In this document: positions 24,441 through 31,287 of the stretch, piece by piece
Position numbering within the stretch: position 1 is the stretch's first letter
Layout of the letters: each line of letters opens with the position of its first letter
From: Candidatus Kapaibacterium sp.
GTDB lineage: Bacteria; Bacteroidota; Ignavibacteria; Kapaibacteriales; UBA2268
Assembly: GCA_938031175.1 (NCBI GenBank)
Contig: CALHGZ010000004.1
Span: 193,635-257,634, forward strand
Length of the DNA stretch: 64,000 nucleotides
Reading direction: 5' to 3'
Translations under genes and position numbers: made by a program
The notes under the pieces: generated by a model
What the model was told of the DNA's origin: nothing
The model's database searches: none
The model's input: the letters and a program-made list of their open reading frames with translations, nothing else

Positions 24441-27332
24441 ATGGGAAAAAGAATTATTTTAATATTATTATTTACCTGCATATTTAAATCTACAGCAGTT
24501 CACAGTGATGAAGAGCAAAAAGCACGAGATTTTTTCCGAAGAGCCAAGGAAGTAGCCCATCCACCTATTGATAAATCACAATTGGAGTTAACCAAAATAC
24601 CATTGATTCAATCCGAACAAAAACGATTATTTTTGAATGTTGCTACAAGTGTTGATGAAGGAGGAGTTGATATAACCCAAAATGAGTCATCAATTGCAGT
24701 AAACCCAAAGAATCCAATGAATTTAATTGCCTCTGCAGTGGATTATAGGGATAATTCAGCGACTTGGGTTTATGTATCTTCTGATGGTGGACGCAGTTGG
24801 GTAAATAAAAATCTTGGTAGGGCTTTCCCCGGCTGGCGATGTAGCAATGATCCATCAGTAGCCTTTGATGCCGATGGAGTGGGATATCTTGTTTATGGGG
24901 GGTTTGGAGAAATTAGCTCAGATACTACCGTTTTATTCGGTGAAAATGGGGTGTTTATTGCTCGCTCATTTGATGAAGGGAAAACTTGGGAAGCACATAT
25001 CCCGATTATCTTACATCGAGGTAAACAAACCCTCGACTCAACTTTTGAAGATAAATATTATATTTCGGTAGATTTATCTCCGAAATCTCCGTATTTTAAT
25101 TATTTATATGTACCTTGGAAACGTGTGACACCTCGCGATTCGGCAACTCAAATAGTTATATCAAGATCTACAGATAAAGGTAAAACCTGGAGTCAACCGG
25201 TAGCAGTCAGTCAACGTTTACCAGGAAGTTCCGAGGATACAACATATGGACAAAGCTTTCCACTTGCAACAACCGGTCCTAATGGTGAATTATATGTTGT
25301 TTGGAATCATGGTATTGAGCATGGGGTTGGTTTTGCAAAGTCAACCGATGGAGGAAAGACTTTTTCAGAGCCAAGGATAATTCATAGATATAATATATTC
25401 GGGGAGACACGTTTACTACCGGGTCAGGGTTGGCGTCATTCAGTTAAAGGGCGTGTGCGTGCTGAAACTTACCCTTCGATTGTATGCGATATTACTGGAG
25501 GTGAACGTAACGGGTACTTATATTTAACTTGGGCTGGAGATAGAATCCCAAATATTTATTTCTCATATTCAAGTAATCAAGGGGAAACTTGGAGCAAACC
25601 AATAATTATTCATTCTGATACTACAAATGACCAGTTCTGGCAGTGGATATCAATTGATCCAAAAAATGGGGATTTAGCTGTTATGTATTTGGATAGTAGA
25701 AATGATCCAGATAATATAATGATTGAAACTTATGTCAGCTATTCATCCGATGGTGGTAAAACTTGGATTGACAGGTGTGTATCAGACCTAAGTCATGATT
25801 TACGACTCAATCCATTTCGAGGAAATTCTTTTGCAGGTGATTACAGTGGTAATGCGTTTTATGATGGTATTATCTATCCATCATGGGTAGATATGAGAAA
25901 TGCTGTTGTAAATATTACTGATAATGATGTTTATGCAGCAATAGTTAATACACGAGCACCAAATCCCCCAAAAAATTTTAAAGTAAAAATTAATGCCCAA
26001 AATCCGCAAGTTCTTGATTTATCATGGAATTCACCTACTGAAAGAGCTTTTGGTCAAAAATTAGAACCAGATGATTTTAAATATATTTTAAAAAGAGATA
26101 ATAAGTTTATAGCCATACTTGAGTCTTCAATAAATAACTATAAAGATGAAAATTTATCCCCATATCAGTTTTATACTTACGAGATCGCTTCTTTTTCCGA
26201 AAAAGATACGAGTATTTTTGTCAGCTCAAGTGCTTATGCTGGAGGTTCCAACATTCCATCCAAGCCAGTCATTTTAACAATTAATGGTGATGCTGAGCGG
26301 AACATTAAATTGAAAATTAAAATACCAACTATGAGAGTTGATAATGAAACCCAAATTGTTAAATTAAAACAATTGGAAATTTATAGGGATTTCGAGCTTC
26401 TGAAAATTTTGGATTTAAAACAAAGTGATACCGGCAGTGTAATAATTTTTGATGATAAATTGCCGGAAGATGGATATTACAGATATCAAGCGAGGATTAA
26501 TGAGGATTTAAGTGAATTCGGTTTTGGAATGCAACAAAGTGAGCTTAGCAATCTTGTTTACTCTTTTACAGGTCCGATTAATGAGGAACTGATAGAGAAT
26601 TTCGATAGTCCTCAAATAAAAAAGTATTATAGAACAGAGCATTGGTCCATTACAAACAAATTTTACCATAGTCAGCCGTTTTCCCTATCATTAAGTAAAG
26701 ATGGTGCTTATGGTCCAAGTTGGCGTGATACGATACTATTATTTCCATTACGATCAATTAGTAATTCCAATTTTTACTTGAATTTTTGGCATGCTGCAAT
26801 TATCCAGCCAAGGGATACGGCATTTGTTGAATTTAGTACAAATGGAGGTATTCAATGGGAGCTAATTGATGTTTTTGATAAAACACGTTATGAACCATGG
26901 GGAGATGGAGAGTTGAATCAGAATGATTGGAAATTTGAATCATTTTCTATTCCCTCAATAGAAGAAGATACTATATATATCAGGTTCAGATTTGCTTCAG
27001 ATTTTTTCAAGCATGATATGGGTTGGTTTATTGATGACATTAACATTTATAATTTTGTATCCGTATCAGCTGATGAAGTGCCTAAACCATTGATCTATCC
27101 AAATCCTGCAATGGATTATCTTAATGTTGCTATATTTGGACAGCTTAAATCCGATTTTCATATCTCAATGTATAACATTTTAGGTGATAAAATTAAAAAT
27201 ATCAATTTAAAGGAATTTATTGATAAGCCGGTCTTAATTAATATTTCTGAACTACCGGTTGGTATTTACATTTTGAAAATTACTGATGAAATGGGATATA
27301 TTTATACGGACAAATTTGTTAAAATGAAATAA
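24441..27332 (+). CDS. Secreted BNR/sialidase-like repeat protein with T9SS sorting tail
   Basis: 963 residues; signal peptide ~1-22. Residues ~75-500 form a beta-propeller with repeated Asp-box motifs (SSDGGRSW, SFDEGKTWE, STDKGKTWSQ, STDGGKTF, SSNQGETWSK, SSDGGKTWID). Fibronectin-III-like regions follow at ~510-700. Residues ~700-860 resemble a jelly-roll (MAM-like) module. The last ~80 residues, opening YPNPAMDYLNV and containing LPVGIYILKI, are a T9SS type A sorting domain. The Asp boxes alone do not prove sialidase activity; catalytic Arg/Tyr/Glu positions were not identified. It is likely exported over the outer membrane and attached or released. Confidence 0.85.
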   Translation: MGKRIILILLFTCIFKSTAVHSDEEQKARDFFRRAKEVAHPPIDKSQLELTKIPLIQSEQKRLFLNVATSVDEGGVDITQNESSIAVNPKNPMNLIASAVDYRDNSATWVYVSSDGGRSWVNKNLGRAFPGWRCSNDPSVAFDADGVGYLVYGGFGEISSDTTVLFGENGVFIARSFDEGKTWEAHIPIILHRGKQTLDSTFEDKYYISVDLSPKSPYFNYLYVPWKRVTPRDSATQIVISRSTDKGKTWSQPVAVSQRLPGSSEDTTYGQSFPLATTGPNGELYVVWNHGIEHGVGFAKSTDGGKTFSEPRIIHRYNIFGETRLLPGQGWRHSVKGRVRAETYPSIVCDITGGERNGYLYLTWAGDRIPNIYFSYSSNQGETWSKPIIIHSDTTNDQFWQWISIDPKNGDLAVMYLDSRNDPDNIMIETYVSYSSDGGKTWIDRCVSDLSHDLRLNPFRGNSFAGDYSGNAFYDGIIYPSWVDMRNAVVNITDNDVYAAIVNTRAPNPPKNFKVKINAQNPQVLDLSWNSPTERAFGQKLEPDDFKYILKRDNKFIAILESSINNYKDENLSPYQFYTYEIASFSEKDTSIFVSSSAYAGGSNIPSKPVILTINGDAERNIKLKIKIPTMRVDNETQIVKLKQLEIYRDFELLKILDLKQSDTGSVIIFDDKLPEDGYYRYQARINEDLSEFGFGMQQSELSNLVYSFTGPINEELIENFDSPQIKKYYRTEHWSITNKFYHSQPFSLSLSKDGAYGPSWRDTILLFPLRSISNSNFYLNFWHAAIIQPRDTAFVEFSTNGGIQWELIDVFDKTRYEPWGDGELNQNDWKFESFSIPSIEEDTIYIRFRFASDFFKHDMGWFIDDINIYNFVSVSADEVPKPLIYPNPAMDYLNVAIFGQLKSDFHISMYNILGDKIKNINLKEFIDKPVLINISELPVGIYILKITDEMGYIYTDKFVKMK

Positions 27333-27381: not shown

Positions 27382-29754
27382 TTATAGCACAAAGTCGATA
27401 GCAAAGTATATATTGCGTTCTGCAGCAGGGAAAAATTCCTTTCCTTCTGCACCAGCAGCGTACAGCTTATTTAACAGATTATTCACTACTGCTCTAATTC
27501 GAATATTTTGTAAAGATAGTACATTTCTAAAATTATATCCCAATATCATATTCATAACAAAGTAAGGGTCGAGGATATTATCAGCATAATATCCACCACT
27601 ATTAGCAAGATAATCAATGATAAATTGATTGGTTCTAATTAAATCGTCAAAATTATCTGTTCGGGATTTTCCAACATATTTAGCAGATAGATTTGCGAAA
27701 AATTCACCAAATCGGTAATCAAGAGCAAAATGGGAGATGATATCGGGAAATCCAGCGATGTTATTCCCATTTAGAGCAACTTTTTCTGTGCCAGTATCAA
27801 ATAGATATTCAACAATTTTATTTTGGCTTAATGTTGCATTTGCAGATAAAATGAACGAGGAGTTGGTCGAGCTAAAAAGGAGTAAAGAGCCTTGAAATTC
27901 AAGTCCTACGTGTCTTGTTCGGGGTGCATTCTGGTCAACGGGATTACCAAAAATATCGAGACGTCCACTCTTTACTAATTCGTCGAAATATTCCATCCAA
28001 TAGAAATTAAAATTTGCATATAGTTTTGTGTTTCTGTAGATCCAACCCAATTCGAAATTTATCATTTTTTCAGGATTGACTAATGGTTTAGTAAAATCGA
28101 AACGTGGATCATCTGCAGTACCTTGGCTTTCGAATAAAGGCATAGCTCCGAAATATGAATCATCGGCAGCATAAAGGTTTCTCATTCGTGGTTCGCGCGA
28201 TGTGTATGCAAGCAGTGAATAAAAATTATTATTTTCATCTAAATTAAAGTTGATACCAATTTTAGGGTTTAAAAATAGATAATTGATTGCGAAAAGCCTA
28301 TTACCTGATAATGAACCGTCGAGATTTTTAAATCTGAGTGGTTTTTCTCTTGCTTTTTCATTCTCAATTGCATAGAGGTGGTTTGTTAACTGAGCTTCAG
28401 CAACAAAACTCAAATCGTCGTTGACGGAAAGTTTTCCTCTGGCGAATATCGAATATATATTCCTAATGCCTTCGTAGTAGTATATTTTACTGTCCGGGTC
28501 ATAATTTCCGGGTAGAATATCGGCGAATTGTATTTTACCCCAATGTTCTGATCGATGGAGGCGTAATTCAGCTCCAGCAGTGATTTCGGCTTTATCAAGT
28601 GAATAACTTAATCTCGGGATCCAGCCGCCGTGTTTATTATCCACAAATCCCTTGATAATCGAATTACTCGGATTATCGCTTGGATTAAAACCATATTCTG
28701 AAGTTAAGCGCAGCAAAGTAGTATCTGCCCAGGAAGCATCGTAATCAAAATATCCGCTTCCTGTGTAATAGAATAAGACTGATTTTAAACTCAATTTATC
28801 GCTTATTTTCCAATCGTTGAGGATTTCGTAGTGAGGTTGACTAAACTCTTCTATTTCCTGAGGTTTTCTTACTGACGTCCATTCATCAATAACATTCTTA
28901 CCGGTTGAATCATAAGTCCAATAACTGAGATTTAATCTCCTTAGTTTTGGATCTTTTATATAATCTTTAGGTAATCCGTTATAGACCAATCCGTCGGTTA
29001 ATGGACCACCGAAGATATTAATTTGGGTGGTAAAGTTATGATCGAATCTAACAGCGCTAAAAAAGTAACTATTTAGATAAGCCCAAGAATGATCCCGATA
29101 ACCTTCGGAATTAATTCGAGAGAGACGACCATAAAAAGCATAATTATCAACAAATCCGGATGAGAACTCTATGAGGTATTTGCTCATAGTTGGTACAAAA
29201 GTATTTGATGAGGTAAATTCCTGCCATCCGATGCCCGAGGACAATCTTATCGCTTTTGTATTAGCGAAGTTTGAAGTAGTAACATTAATACTACCACCGA
29301 TAGCTGGTGATCCGTAAATGTTCATACCAGCACCTCGTTGAATTTGTATATTGTCAGTGCTTTCAGCTAGATCAGGGAAGTCAATCCAATAAACGTTATG
29401 ATCCTCGGGGTCATTTTGAGGTACGCCATTAATCAAGACTGCTATGCGTCTTTGGTCGAATCCTCTCAGATTAAGGTTTGTATAGCCAATACCATTACCG
29501 CTCTGTGAATATGTAATAATTGATGGCATAAAATTTAGGAATTGTGGTAAATCAGTAAGCGTATAACTTTTTTGAATCTCAGCTTGGCTAATTTCGGTAA
29601 ATGGTACGGGTGTACGTCTTTCCTCTGCTCGAGTAGCAGTAACAGTTATGCTTGGAATGTAGTAGATTTTGATTGTATCTTGTTCTGCTTCTCCTGCTTG
29701 AAGGAGATTTAATAAAATGAGATTAAGCAAAAGGAAATTGATTGATTTAAGCAT
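27382..29754 (-). CDS. TonB-dependent outer-membrane receptor under TPP control (probable thiamine or precursor uptake)
   Basis: 790 residues from ATG 29754, chosen because GGAGG lies five bases before it; the longer frame to 29811 reads into the riboswitch leader. Signal peptide 1-21. A TonB-box-like start (TITVTATRAEE type: SITVTATRAEERR) is followed by the plug domain (~50-160) with 'NLNLRGFDQRRIAVLINGVP' and 'IQRGAGMNIYGSPAIGGSINV', then a beta-barrel ending in IYFAIDFVL with the C-terminal aromatic/hydrophobic residue. The TPP riboswitch in its leader points to thiamine, HMP or a related compound as substrate; THI-controlled TonB receptors are known in Bacteroidota. No other thi gene is in the window. 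Confidence 0.88.
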   Translation of the reverse strand: MLKSINFLLLNLILLNLLQAGEAEQDTIKIYYIPSITVTATRAEERRTPVPFTEISQAEIQKSYTLTDLPQFLNFMPSIITYSQSGNGIGYTNLNLRGFDQRRIAVLINGVPQNDPEDHNVYWIDFPDLAESTDNIQIQRGAGMNIYGSPAIGGSINVTTSNFANTKAIRLSSGIGWQEFTSSNTFVPTMSKYLIEFSSGFVDNYAFYGRLSRINSEGYRDHSWAYLNSYFFSAVRFDHNFTTQINIFGGPLTDGLVYNGLPKDYIKDPKLRRLNLSYWTYDSTGKNVIDEWTSVRKPQEIEEFSQPHYEILNDWKISDKLSLKSVLFYYTGSGYFDYDASWADTTLLRLTSEYGFNPSDNPSNSIIKGFVDNKHGGWIPRLSYSLDKAEITAGAELRLHRSEHWGKIQFADILPGNYDPDSKIYYYEGIRNIYSIFARGKLSVNDDLSFVAEAQLTNHLYAIENEKAREKPLRFKNLDGSLSGNRLFAINYLFLNPKIGINFNLDENNNFYSLLAYTSREPRMRNLYAADDSYFGAMPLFESQGTADDPRFDFTKPLVNPEKMINFELGWIYRNTKLYANFNFYWMEYFDELVKSGRLDIFGNPVDQNAPRTRHVGLEFQGSLLLFSSTNSSFILSANATLSQNKIVEYLFDTGTEKVALNGNNIAGFPDIISHFALDYRFGEFFANLSAKYVGKSRTDNFDDLIRTNQFIIDYLANSGGYYADNILDPYFVMNMILGYNFRNVLSLQNIRIRAVVNNLLNKLYAAGAEGKEFFPAAERNIYFAIDFVL

Positions 29755-29759
29755 AGAAA

Positions 29760-29764
29760 CCTCC
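29760..29764 (-). promoter_or_regulatory. Shine-Dalgarno GGAGG of the TonB receptor, within reach of an anti-SD
   Basis: GGAGG five bases before ATG 29754. CCTCCA at 29790-29795 (minus strand) can pair with TGGAGG at 29760-29765, which would hide this site. Confidence 0.7.
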
Positions 29765-29830
29765 ATTATATTTAACAATTGTTGCCGTTTGGAGGATTCT
29801 GATTCGGTCATTTGCGTGGGGATTAATTTT

Positions 29831-29913
29831 TCCGTTTCCCTACGCCGGTATTATCCGGATCAGGTTCAAGGAGTATAATCTCAGCTTGCTTATTGCTAAG
29901 CACCTCCAACGGA
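29831..29913 (-). ncRNA. TPP (THI-box) riboswitch
   Basis: Read on the minus strand, the leader has the conserved TPP aptamer parts in order: GGAGGTGC, CTGAGA (29879-29884), then the nearly invariant block at 29837-29864 that begins CCTGATCCGG and ends CGTAGGGA. The P1 stem closes perfectly with TCCGTT (29908-29913) and AACGGA (29831-29836). It senses thiamine pyrophosphate. It lies 76 bases before the TonB receptor start. The downstream sequence CCTCCAAACGG (29785-29795) can pair either with the aptamer's 5' strand or with the Shine-Dalgarno site, which suggests control of translation. Confidence 0.97.
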
Positions 29914-29917
29914 TAAA

Positions 29918-30024: not shown

Positions 30025-31287
30025 ATGGATAAATTCATAATAAAGGGTGGTACTCGCCTGGAAGGAAGCATAAAAATTTCAGGCTCGAAGAATTGCTCCC
30101 TGGCACTAATGGCTTCTGTTTTGTTAGCTCCTGGGAAATATAAAATAATCAATACCCCTGACTTAAGAGATGTAAGTACAATGTCGCTTCTTCTTGAGAA
30201 TATGGGAGCGAAAGTAGATTTTTCTCAAAATCTTCTTACAATTGATACAACTGGAGTTAATTCCTATGAAGCACCTTATGAGCACGTCAAAAAGATGCGC
30301 GCTTCATTTTATGTACTTGGTCCATTGCTTGCTCGGTTTGGACGTGCAAAAGTATCTTTACCAGGTGGTTGTGCTTGGGGGCCACGTCCAGTTGATTTGC
30401 ACATCAAGGCAATGCAAAAGCTTGGTGCTATTATTTCAATTGAGAAGGGATACGTTATAGCCAAAACAAAAAAATTAAAAGGGAATTTGATTCATTTTGA
30501 TATTTCAAGCGTAGGTGCAACCGGCAATGCTCTCATGGCGGCAACATTAGCAAAAGGTACAACTGTCATAACAAACGCTGCTATTGAACCGGAAATAACT
30601 GCTTTAGCTGAAATGCTTGTAAAAATGGGTGCTAAAATAGATGGAATTGGAACCACAACTTTAACAATAGAGGGTGTTGATGAGTTGTATTCATGTGATT
30701 TTGAAAATATTCCTGATAGAATTGAATCTGCAACATTCTTAATTGCAGCTGCAATGACCAAAGGGAAGATTGAGTTAAATAATACAAATTACGAGCATAT
30801 GACTGCTGTTTTAACAAAATTAGAAGAATCCGGTTGCAAAATAAGTTATGACAAAAAGAACATATATCTTGAAATGGAAAATTCACCTATTCCAACTGAT
30901 ATAATAACATCAGTATATCCAGGGATACCAACGGATATACAGGCTCAATGGACAGCTTATATGCTATTGGCGAAAGGTACAAGTAAAATAACTGATACGA
31001 TATATTATGACAGATTTAAGCACATTCCAGAATTGATGCGACTGGGAGCTGATATAGATCTTGTCGAGAATACAGCCATTGTCAATGGAGGCAAGCAATT
31101 ATCCGGTGCAGTTGTTATGTCATCTGATTTGAGGGGTAGTGCCTCATTAATTTTAGCAGGTCTTGTTGCAAAGGGAACGACCGAGGTTTTACGTATATAT
31201 CATATTGATCGAGGTTACGAAAAAATTGAAAATAAATTAAATTCAATTGGAGCTAATATCAAAAGAGTGAAAACAGATATTATATGA
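30025..31287 (+). CDS. murA: UDP-N-acetylglucosamine 1-carboxyvinyltransferase
   Basis: 420 residues, usual length. It transfers enolpyruvate from PEP to UDP-GlcNAc, the first committed step of peptidoglycan synthesis. SGSKNCSLALMA holds Lys22; LPGGCAWGPRPVDLH holds the catalytic loop Cys116, the residue attacked by fosfomycin; 'SVGATGNALMAATLAKG' and DLRGSASLILAGLVAKG are the conserved domain blocks of the inverted alpha/beta barrel. The stop overlaps the next gene (envC-like) by four bases (ATGA). Confidence 0.96.
   Translation: MDKFIIKGGTRLEGSIKISGSKNCSLALMASVLLAPGKYKIINTPDLRDVSTMSLLLENMGAKVDFSQNLLTIDTTGVNSYEAPYEHVKKMRASFYVLGPLLARFGRAKVSLPGGCAWGPRPVDLHIKAMQKLGAIISIEKGYVIAKTKKLKGNLIHFDISSVGATGNALMAATLAKGTTVITNAAIEPEITALAEMLVKMGAKIDGIGTTTLTIEGVDELYSCDFENIPDRIESATFLIAAAMTKGKIELNNTNYEHMTAVLTKLEESGCKISYDKKNIYLEMENSPIPTDIITSVYPGIPTDIQAQWTAYMLLAKGTSKITDTIYYDRFKHIPELMRLGADIDLVENTAIVNGGKQLSGAVVMSSDLRGSASLILAGLVAKGTTEVLRIYHIDRGYEKIENKLNSIGANIKRVKTDII

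Follow-up and report, generated by a model that had tools for sequence, protein, structure and literature searches.

The leader of a TonB-dependent receptor gene in the window (by which we mean the whole 64,000-nt stretch of DNA analysed) contains a TPP riboswitch, and raises the question of how such an element could convey the presence of its ligand to the gene behind it. An earlier note on this DNA had proposed that a single CCTCC element in the leader pairs with the aptamer when TPP is scarce, and with the Shine-Dalgarno sequence of the receptor gene when TPP is bound. On the evidence described below, the leader is very probably a TPP riboswitch of this kind, in which a swap of pairing partners keeps a predicted TonB-dependent thiamine receptor from being translated. 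The aptamer, the gene and the competing helices can be read directly from the DNA; how translation responds in the cell, as well as TPP binding and the substrate of the receptor, is what we infer from them.

The aptamer, the receptor gene and thiamine supply

The aptamer (the THI element) occupies positions 29917–29820 of the minus strand. It matches the Rfam covariance model RF00059 over model positions 1–105, with a score of 81.6 bits (E 1.4e-14; cut-off 54.3), and is the only Rfam match above the gathering score in the 64,000-nt window, as well as the only TPP match in the whole 2.69-Mb genome. Matches below the cut-off also occur near the leader; these are to eukaryotic families, and we dismiss them as chance. 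The aptamer is full length, exceeds the curated cut-off, contains the conserved core elements CUGAGA and ACCUGA...GCGUAGGGAA, and can be expected to bind TPP. Its end lies 65 bases from the ATG (29754–29752) of the receptor gene, which extends from 29754 to 27382 on the same strand and encodes a protein of 790 amino acids with a TonB plug (PF07715) and a beta-barrel domain (PF00593). The earlier note's identification of a TPP riboswitch in front of a TonB receptor is thus borne out by both the RNA and the protein models. The receptor is predicted to be of the OMthi type, with thiamine as its putative substrate. Its gene is flanked by a divergent MurA-like gene upstream (30025–31287) and by a convergent gene for a secreted BNR protein that ends at 27332, and so stands alone.

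Orthologues of the receptor, with the same TPP leader, occur in most of the window's family. ThiC is missing from 50 of the 54 family genomes, that of the window (G000) among them, while thiamine pyrophosphokinase (TPK) is present in the latter, so the organism very likely depends on thiamine from outside, and lowering the receptor's expression while TPP abounds would be in keeping with that. Thiamine import is apparently required, yet neither of two transporters was found in G000: PnuT, the inner-membrane partner of OMthi receptors (PF04973 has no match there, nor in 11 further genomes of the family that were searched), or ThiT.

A TPP match above the cut-off is present in 44 of the 54 same-family genomes, and never more than one per genome. 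Homologues in the public record come mostly from Kapabacteria, under names such as ‘Candidatus Kapaibacterium’ and ‘Ignavibacteria bacterium’. For comparison we assembled 45 leaders from the window's family and some 55 from other families in the order; nearly all of those surveyed precede the same type of receptor. One exception is found in G033, where the TPP leader precedes a thiamine synthesis operon. This genome is one of only four in the family with ThiC; the other three (G015, G016 and G049) have no TPP match. Elsewhere, two TPP aptamers occur about 1.1 kb apart on one contig (L110 and L111, G096:C71:85211-86466), the nearer of which precedes a ThiC-like gene.

Two competing helices

The pairings at issue involve three short elements of the minus strand, and the sequences and positions given for them in the earlier note proved accurate. 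The switching strand, TCCGTTGGAGG (29913–29903), comprises the P1 5' strand, CCGTT, and the aptamer bases that follow it, GGAGG. It can pair either with the P1 3' strand, AACGG (29836–29832 in the Rfam alignment), or with an antisequestor, CCTCCAAACGG (29795–29785), which consists of an anti-Shine-Dalgarno followed by a copy of the P1 3' strand and occurs once in the window. The antisequestor has two partners in turn: the switching strand, or the Shine-Dalgarno sequence TGGAGG (29765–29760), 5 nt upstream of the ATG. With the switching strand it forms a duplex of 10 pairs with one bulged A, just as described before (–14.2 kcal/mol). With the Shine-Dalgarno it forms a sequestor hairpin over the ribosome binding site (29800–29755; AGAA.CCTCCA × TGGAGG.TTCT, with a mismatch between the two blocks; –12.0 kcal/mol). 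All ten linker bases of the first helix, which we call anti-P1, are reused in the hairpin; the two pairings are therefore mutually exclusive, as a switch requires. The earlier note had also remarked that the leader copies the aptamer's own GGAGG. The copy is there, and it needs no separate explanation, because both strands compete for one CCTCC.

By itself, the sequence of the window offers modest evidence for these paired helices, suggestive at best. Against dinucleotide shuffles of the linker, the anti-P1 duplex has p = 0.015 when a 13-nt aptamer strand is considered and p = 0.11 when a 22-nt strand is, and the hairpin with the Shine-Dalgarno has p = 0.08–0.11. That TGGAGG can serve as a Shine-Dalgarno sequence agrees with the start-site statistics of this genome, drawn from about 390 kb: G is enriched at –8 to –11 before gene starts. 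A 16S match was sought in the assembly and none was found.

Folding predicts that CCUCC changes partners. In the free leader, taken to 29740 (the fifteenth coding base), it pairs with the aptamer strand at 0.95; when the aptamer pairs are imposed, its partner is the Shine-Dalgarno (1.00). These states lie 7.6 kcal/mol apart, a gap that ligand binding together with co-transcriptional folding could bridge. With 40 more coding bases the free-energy minimum shifts, and even in the absence of TPP most of the Shine-Dalgarno is paired (0.72 for its pairing with CCTCC). Since the longer RNA hides the Shine-Dalgarno in this way, the on/off ratio may depend on folding during transcription.

The decisive evidence is comparative. 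In almost every leader surveyed, the P1 3' strand is repeated in the linker, mostly 37–60 nt before the start codon (e.g. CAACGG, CTCACGG and TAACGGA, or GTTTGC where P1 is GCAAAC). This repeat forms the start of the 5' arm of a hairpin, or overlaps that arm; the 3' arm reaches to the start codon or stops just short of it. Between genera the sequences of the two arms are very different: CCTCCAAACGGATAGTT × AACTATTCGTGAGG in L006, GGAAAAGTC × GGACTTTTC in L008, GGACG × CGTCC in L057 and GGAGCATC × GATGCTC in L112. Leaders this divergent align too poorly in MAFFT for pairs to be counted by column, and for that reason we exchanged strands between leaders instead, using one leader from each of 40 genera of the window's order and 20,000 permutations. 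Hairpin arms pair far better with their own partners (mean –12.0 kcal/mol) than with exchanged ones (–7.9 kcal/mol; z –10.2), and the aptamer strand pairs better with its own linker (–13.4 versus –11.8 kcal/mol; z –5.1); in neither case did any of the 20,000 permutations do as well. As a control, the aptamer strand was paired with the last 24 nt of the leader, and there its own partner was not favoured (z +1.3). The shuffle test, when its probabilities are combined by Fisher's method over the 40 genera, which are not fully independent, gives 1e-19 for the duplex and 4e-18 for the hairpin. One of the two helices is weak in some relatives. Within the window's family alone the hairpin remains significant, and the anti-P1 helix does not (z –1.1), because the aptamer strand hardly varies there. 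Both pairings are maintained by compensatory change across 40 genera, and the mutually exclusive pairing that the earlier note had read from one leader holds up.

These results, and the lack of a terminator described below, support the proposed translation-off logic in outline. When TPP is scarce, the aptamer 5' strand would pair with CCTCCAAACGG and disrupt the aptamer, leaving the Shine-Dalgarno accessible and the receptor translated. When TPP is bound, P1 would be locked with its true 3' strand and CCTCC set free; the freed element would then close the hairpin, covering the Shine-Dalgarno and what lies between it and the start codon. One refinement concerns the part that is conserved, which is the hairpin closing on the initiation region and not the Shine-Dalgarno. 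GGAGG is not conserved among the relatives. Some of them have no Shine-Dalgarno at all, and in one family (f2) none lies before the ATG on which the hairpin closes. In the window's genome, GGAG precedes only some 15% of naively called starts, versus 2% of internal ATGs.

Other explanations for the leader

A variant of this mechanism, which we consider rather unlikely, is that the platform acts throughout the order by way of the start-site hairpin, with no need of a Shine-Dalgarno, and that a conserved loop, UGUUYMAY, plays a part of its own, perhaps as a site that the ribosome or a protein binds when the RNA is in its free state. Shuffling predicts the loop motif, WTGTTYMAY, in 0.6 leaders; it occurs in 25 of 86, and in 16 of 40 genera. 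It sits in the loop of the start-site hairpin, 22–30 nt upstream of the start codon (e.g. L002, L006, L050 and L103). The window's own loop element, TTGTTAAAT (29778–29770), matches only a looser form of it. Two other accounts of the motif were tried and rejected. As a conserved alternative start codon it fails, since it does not keep one reading frame with the receptor and, in several leaders, stop codons separate the two. Nor is it a general feature of gene starts, upstream of which it is only mildly enriched in this genome (10 matches in 248 regions; 0.56 versus 0.25 per kb).

Alternatively, the riboswitch might act on transcription, with the hairpin, or a Rho-dependent site, ending the transcript once TPP is bound and the cover over the start site being secondary. 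We regard this as improbable, though Rho-dependent termination may occur. It does have precedents nearby: in other orders of the class, at least five of seven leaders end in GCCGTTTTC...GGC followed by a T run, a typical terminator, and within the window's order L082 and L083, both of one genus, have a weak terminator-like site. The earlier note had itself set regulation at transcription against its proposal, and a search of the window leader and of 42 leaders of its family speaks for the proposal: the former has no intrinsic terminator, and a terminator-like site is present in none of the 42. Furthermore, the hairpin has its base directly at the start codon, and compensatory change maintains it.

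The leaders of the relatives differ in other ways, too. In L206, L208, L215, L226 and L227, all from other orders, the 5' arm of the receptor-leader terminator is complementary to the P1 3' strand. In L058, L101, L104 and L117 the receptor start codon lies directly 3' of P1, an arrangement which suggests that initiation could be occluded by the aptamer itself, with no separate platform. Terminators elsewhere, together with direct occlusion in a few relatives, imply that the expression platform has been exchanged while the aptamer and the type of receptor have been retained.

We think it very improbable that the pairings are by-products of a purine-rich Shine-Dalgarno in a pyrimidine-rich leader, with a real aptamer that acts in some other way. 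The window alone would allow as much, its helices reaching only p = 0.015 and about 0.1; the swap test contradicts it, since arms of dissimilar sequence are complementary in 40 genera, and so do leaders with no Shine-Dalgarno, in which GGACG × CGTCC adjoins the ATG. Equally hard to credit is a receptor start further upstream, at the ATG at 29811 or the in-frame ATG at 29766, which would place CCTCC inside the coding sequence and do away with Shine-Dalgarno control: an ATG-started frame of 809 amino acids is indeed open from 29811, and the receptor frame is open also from a TTG in the loop and from the ATG at 29766, but what looks like a signal peptide starts at 29754, with a strong Shine-Dalgarno 5 nt ahead of it, and the relatives, which lend the 29811 start no support, align from 29754 and in several cases have stop codons upstream. 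A translational switch by exchange of pairing partners is the reading we carry forward.

Comparison with known systems

In the textbook form of a translational expression platform, the ligand disrupts an antisequestor pairing, and a sequestor hairpin can then cover the ribosome binding site (Barrick and Breaker 2007, PMC2258182); the window leader would follow the same principle without difference. Among TPP riboswitches, the thiM leader of E. coli hides its Shine-Dalgarno when TPP is present, and its P1 is mispaired with the expression platform when TPP is absent (PMC3280964). The window leader resembles it in aptamer class, in the proposed ligand-bound P1 and in the proposed hiding of the Shine-Dalgarno under TPP. 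It differs in its antisequestor, which joins an anti-Shine-Dalgarno to a near duplicate of the P1 3' strand, and in its target gene, which encodes an outer-membrane receptor.

In this last respect the closest parallel is Bacteroides thetaiotaomicron, in which a TPP riboswitch precedes the TonB-dependent thiamine receptor OMthi (BT2390; PMC5613172). The arrangement is the same, the window's receptor being a predicted one; the window's organism belongs to a different class of Bacteroidota, and its genome lacks PnuT, with which OMthi works in B. thetaiotaomicron and which is its usual, though not universal, partner. Sequestor–antisequestor TPP switches and TPP-controlled TonB-dependent thiamine receptors are both already known, and the present case is familiar in kind.

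In 2017, how TPP riboswitches work in Bacteroidetes was stated to be uncertain; the authors found the receptor transcripts of Bacteroides nearly unchanged, and the level of control uncertain (PMC5613172). A 2019 preprint, to go by its title, reports control of transcription or translation by the TPP riboswitches of Bacteroides (cited in PMC7366714). Our comparison points to translational control in one whole order of Bacteroidetes and to terminators in neighbouring orders, and in a few relatives to an aptamer that itself blocks the start site: the same aptamer and type of receptor, served by expression platforms that would have been exchanged in the course of evolution. It also provides a testable case of translational switching in which some of the relatives have no Shine-Dalgarno.
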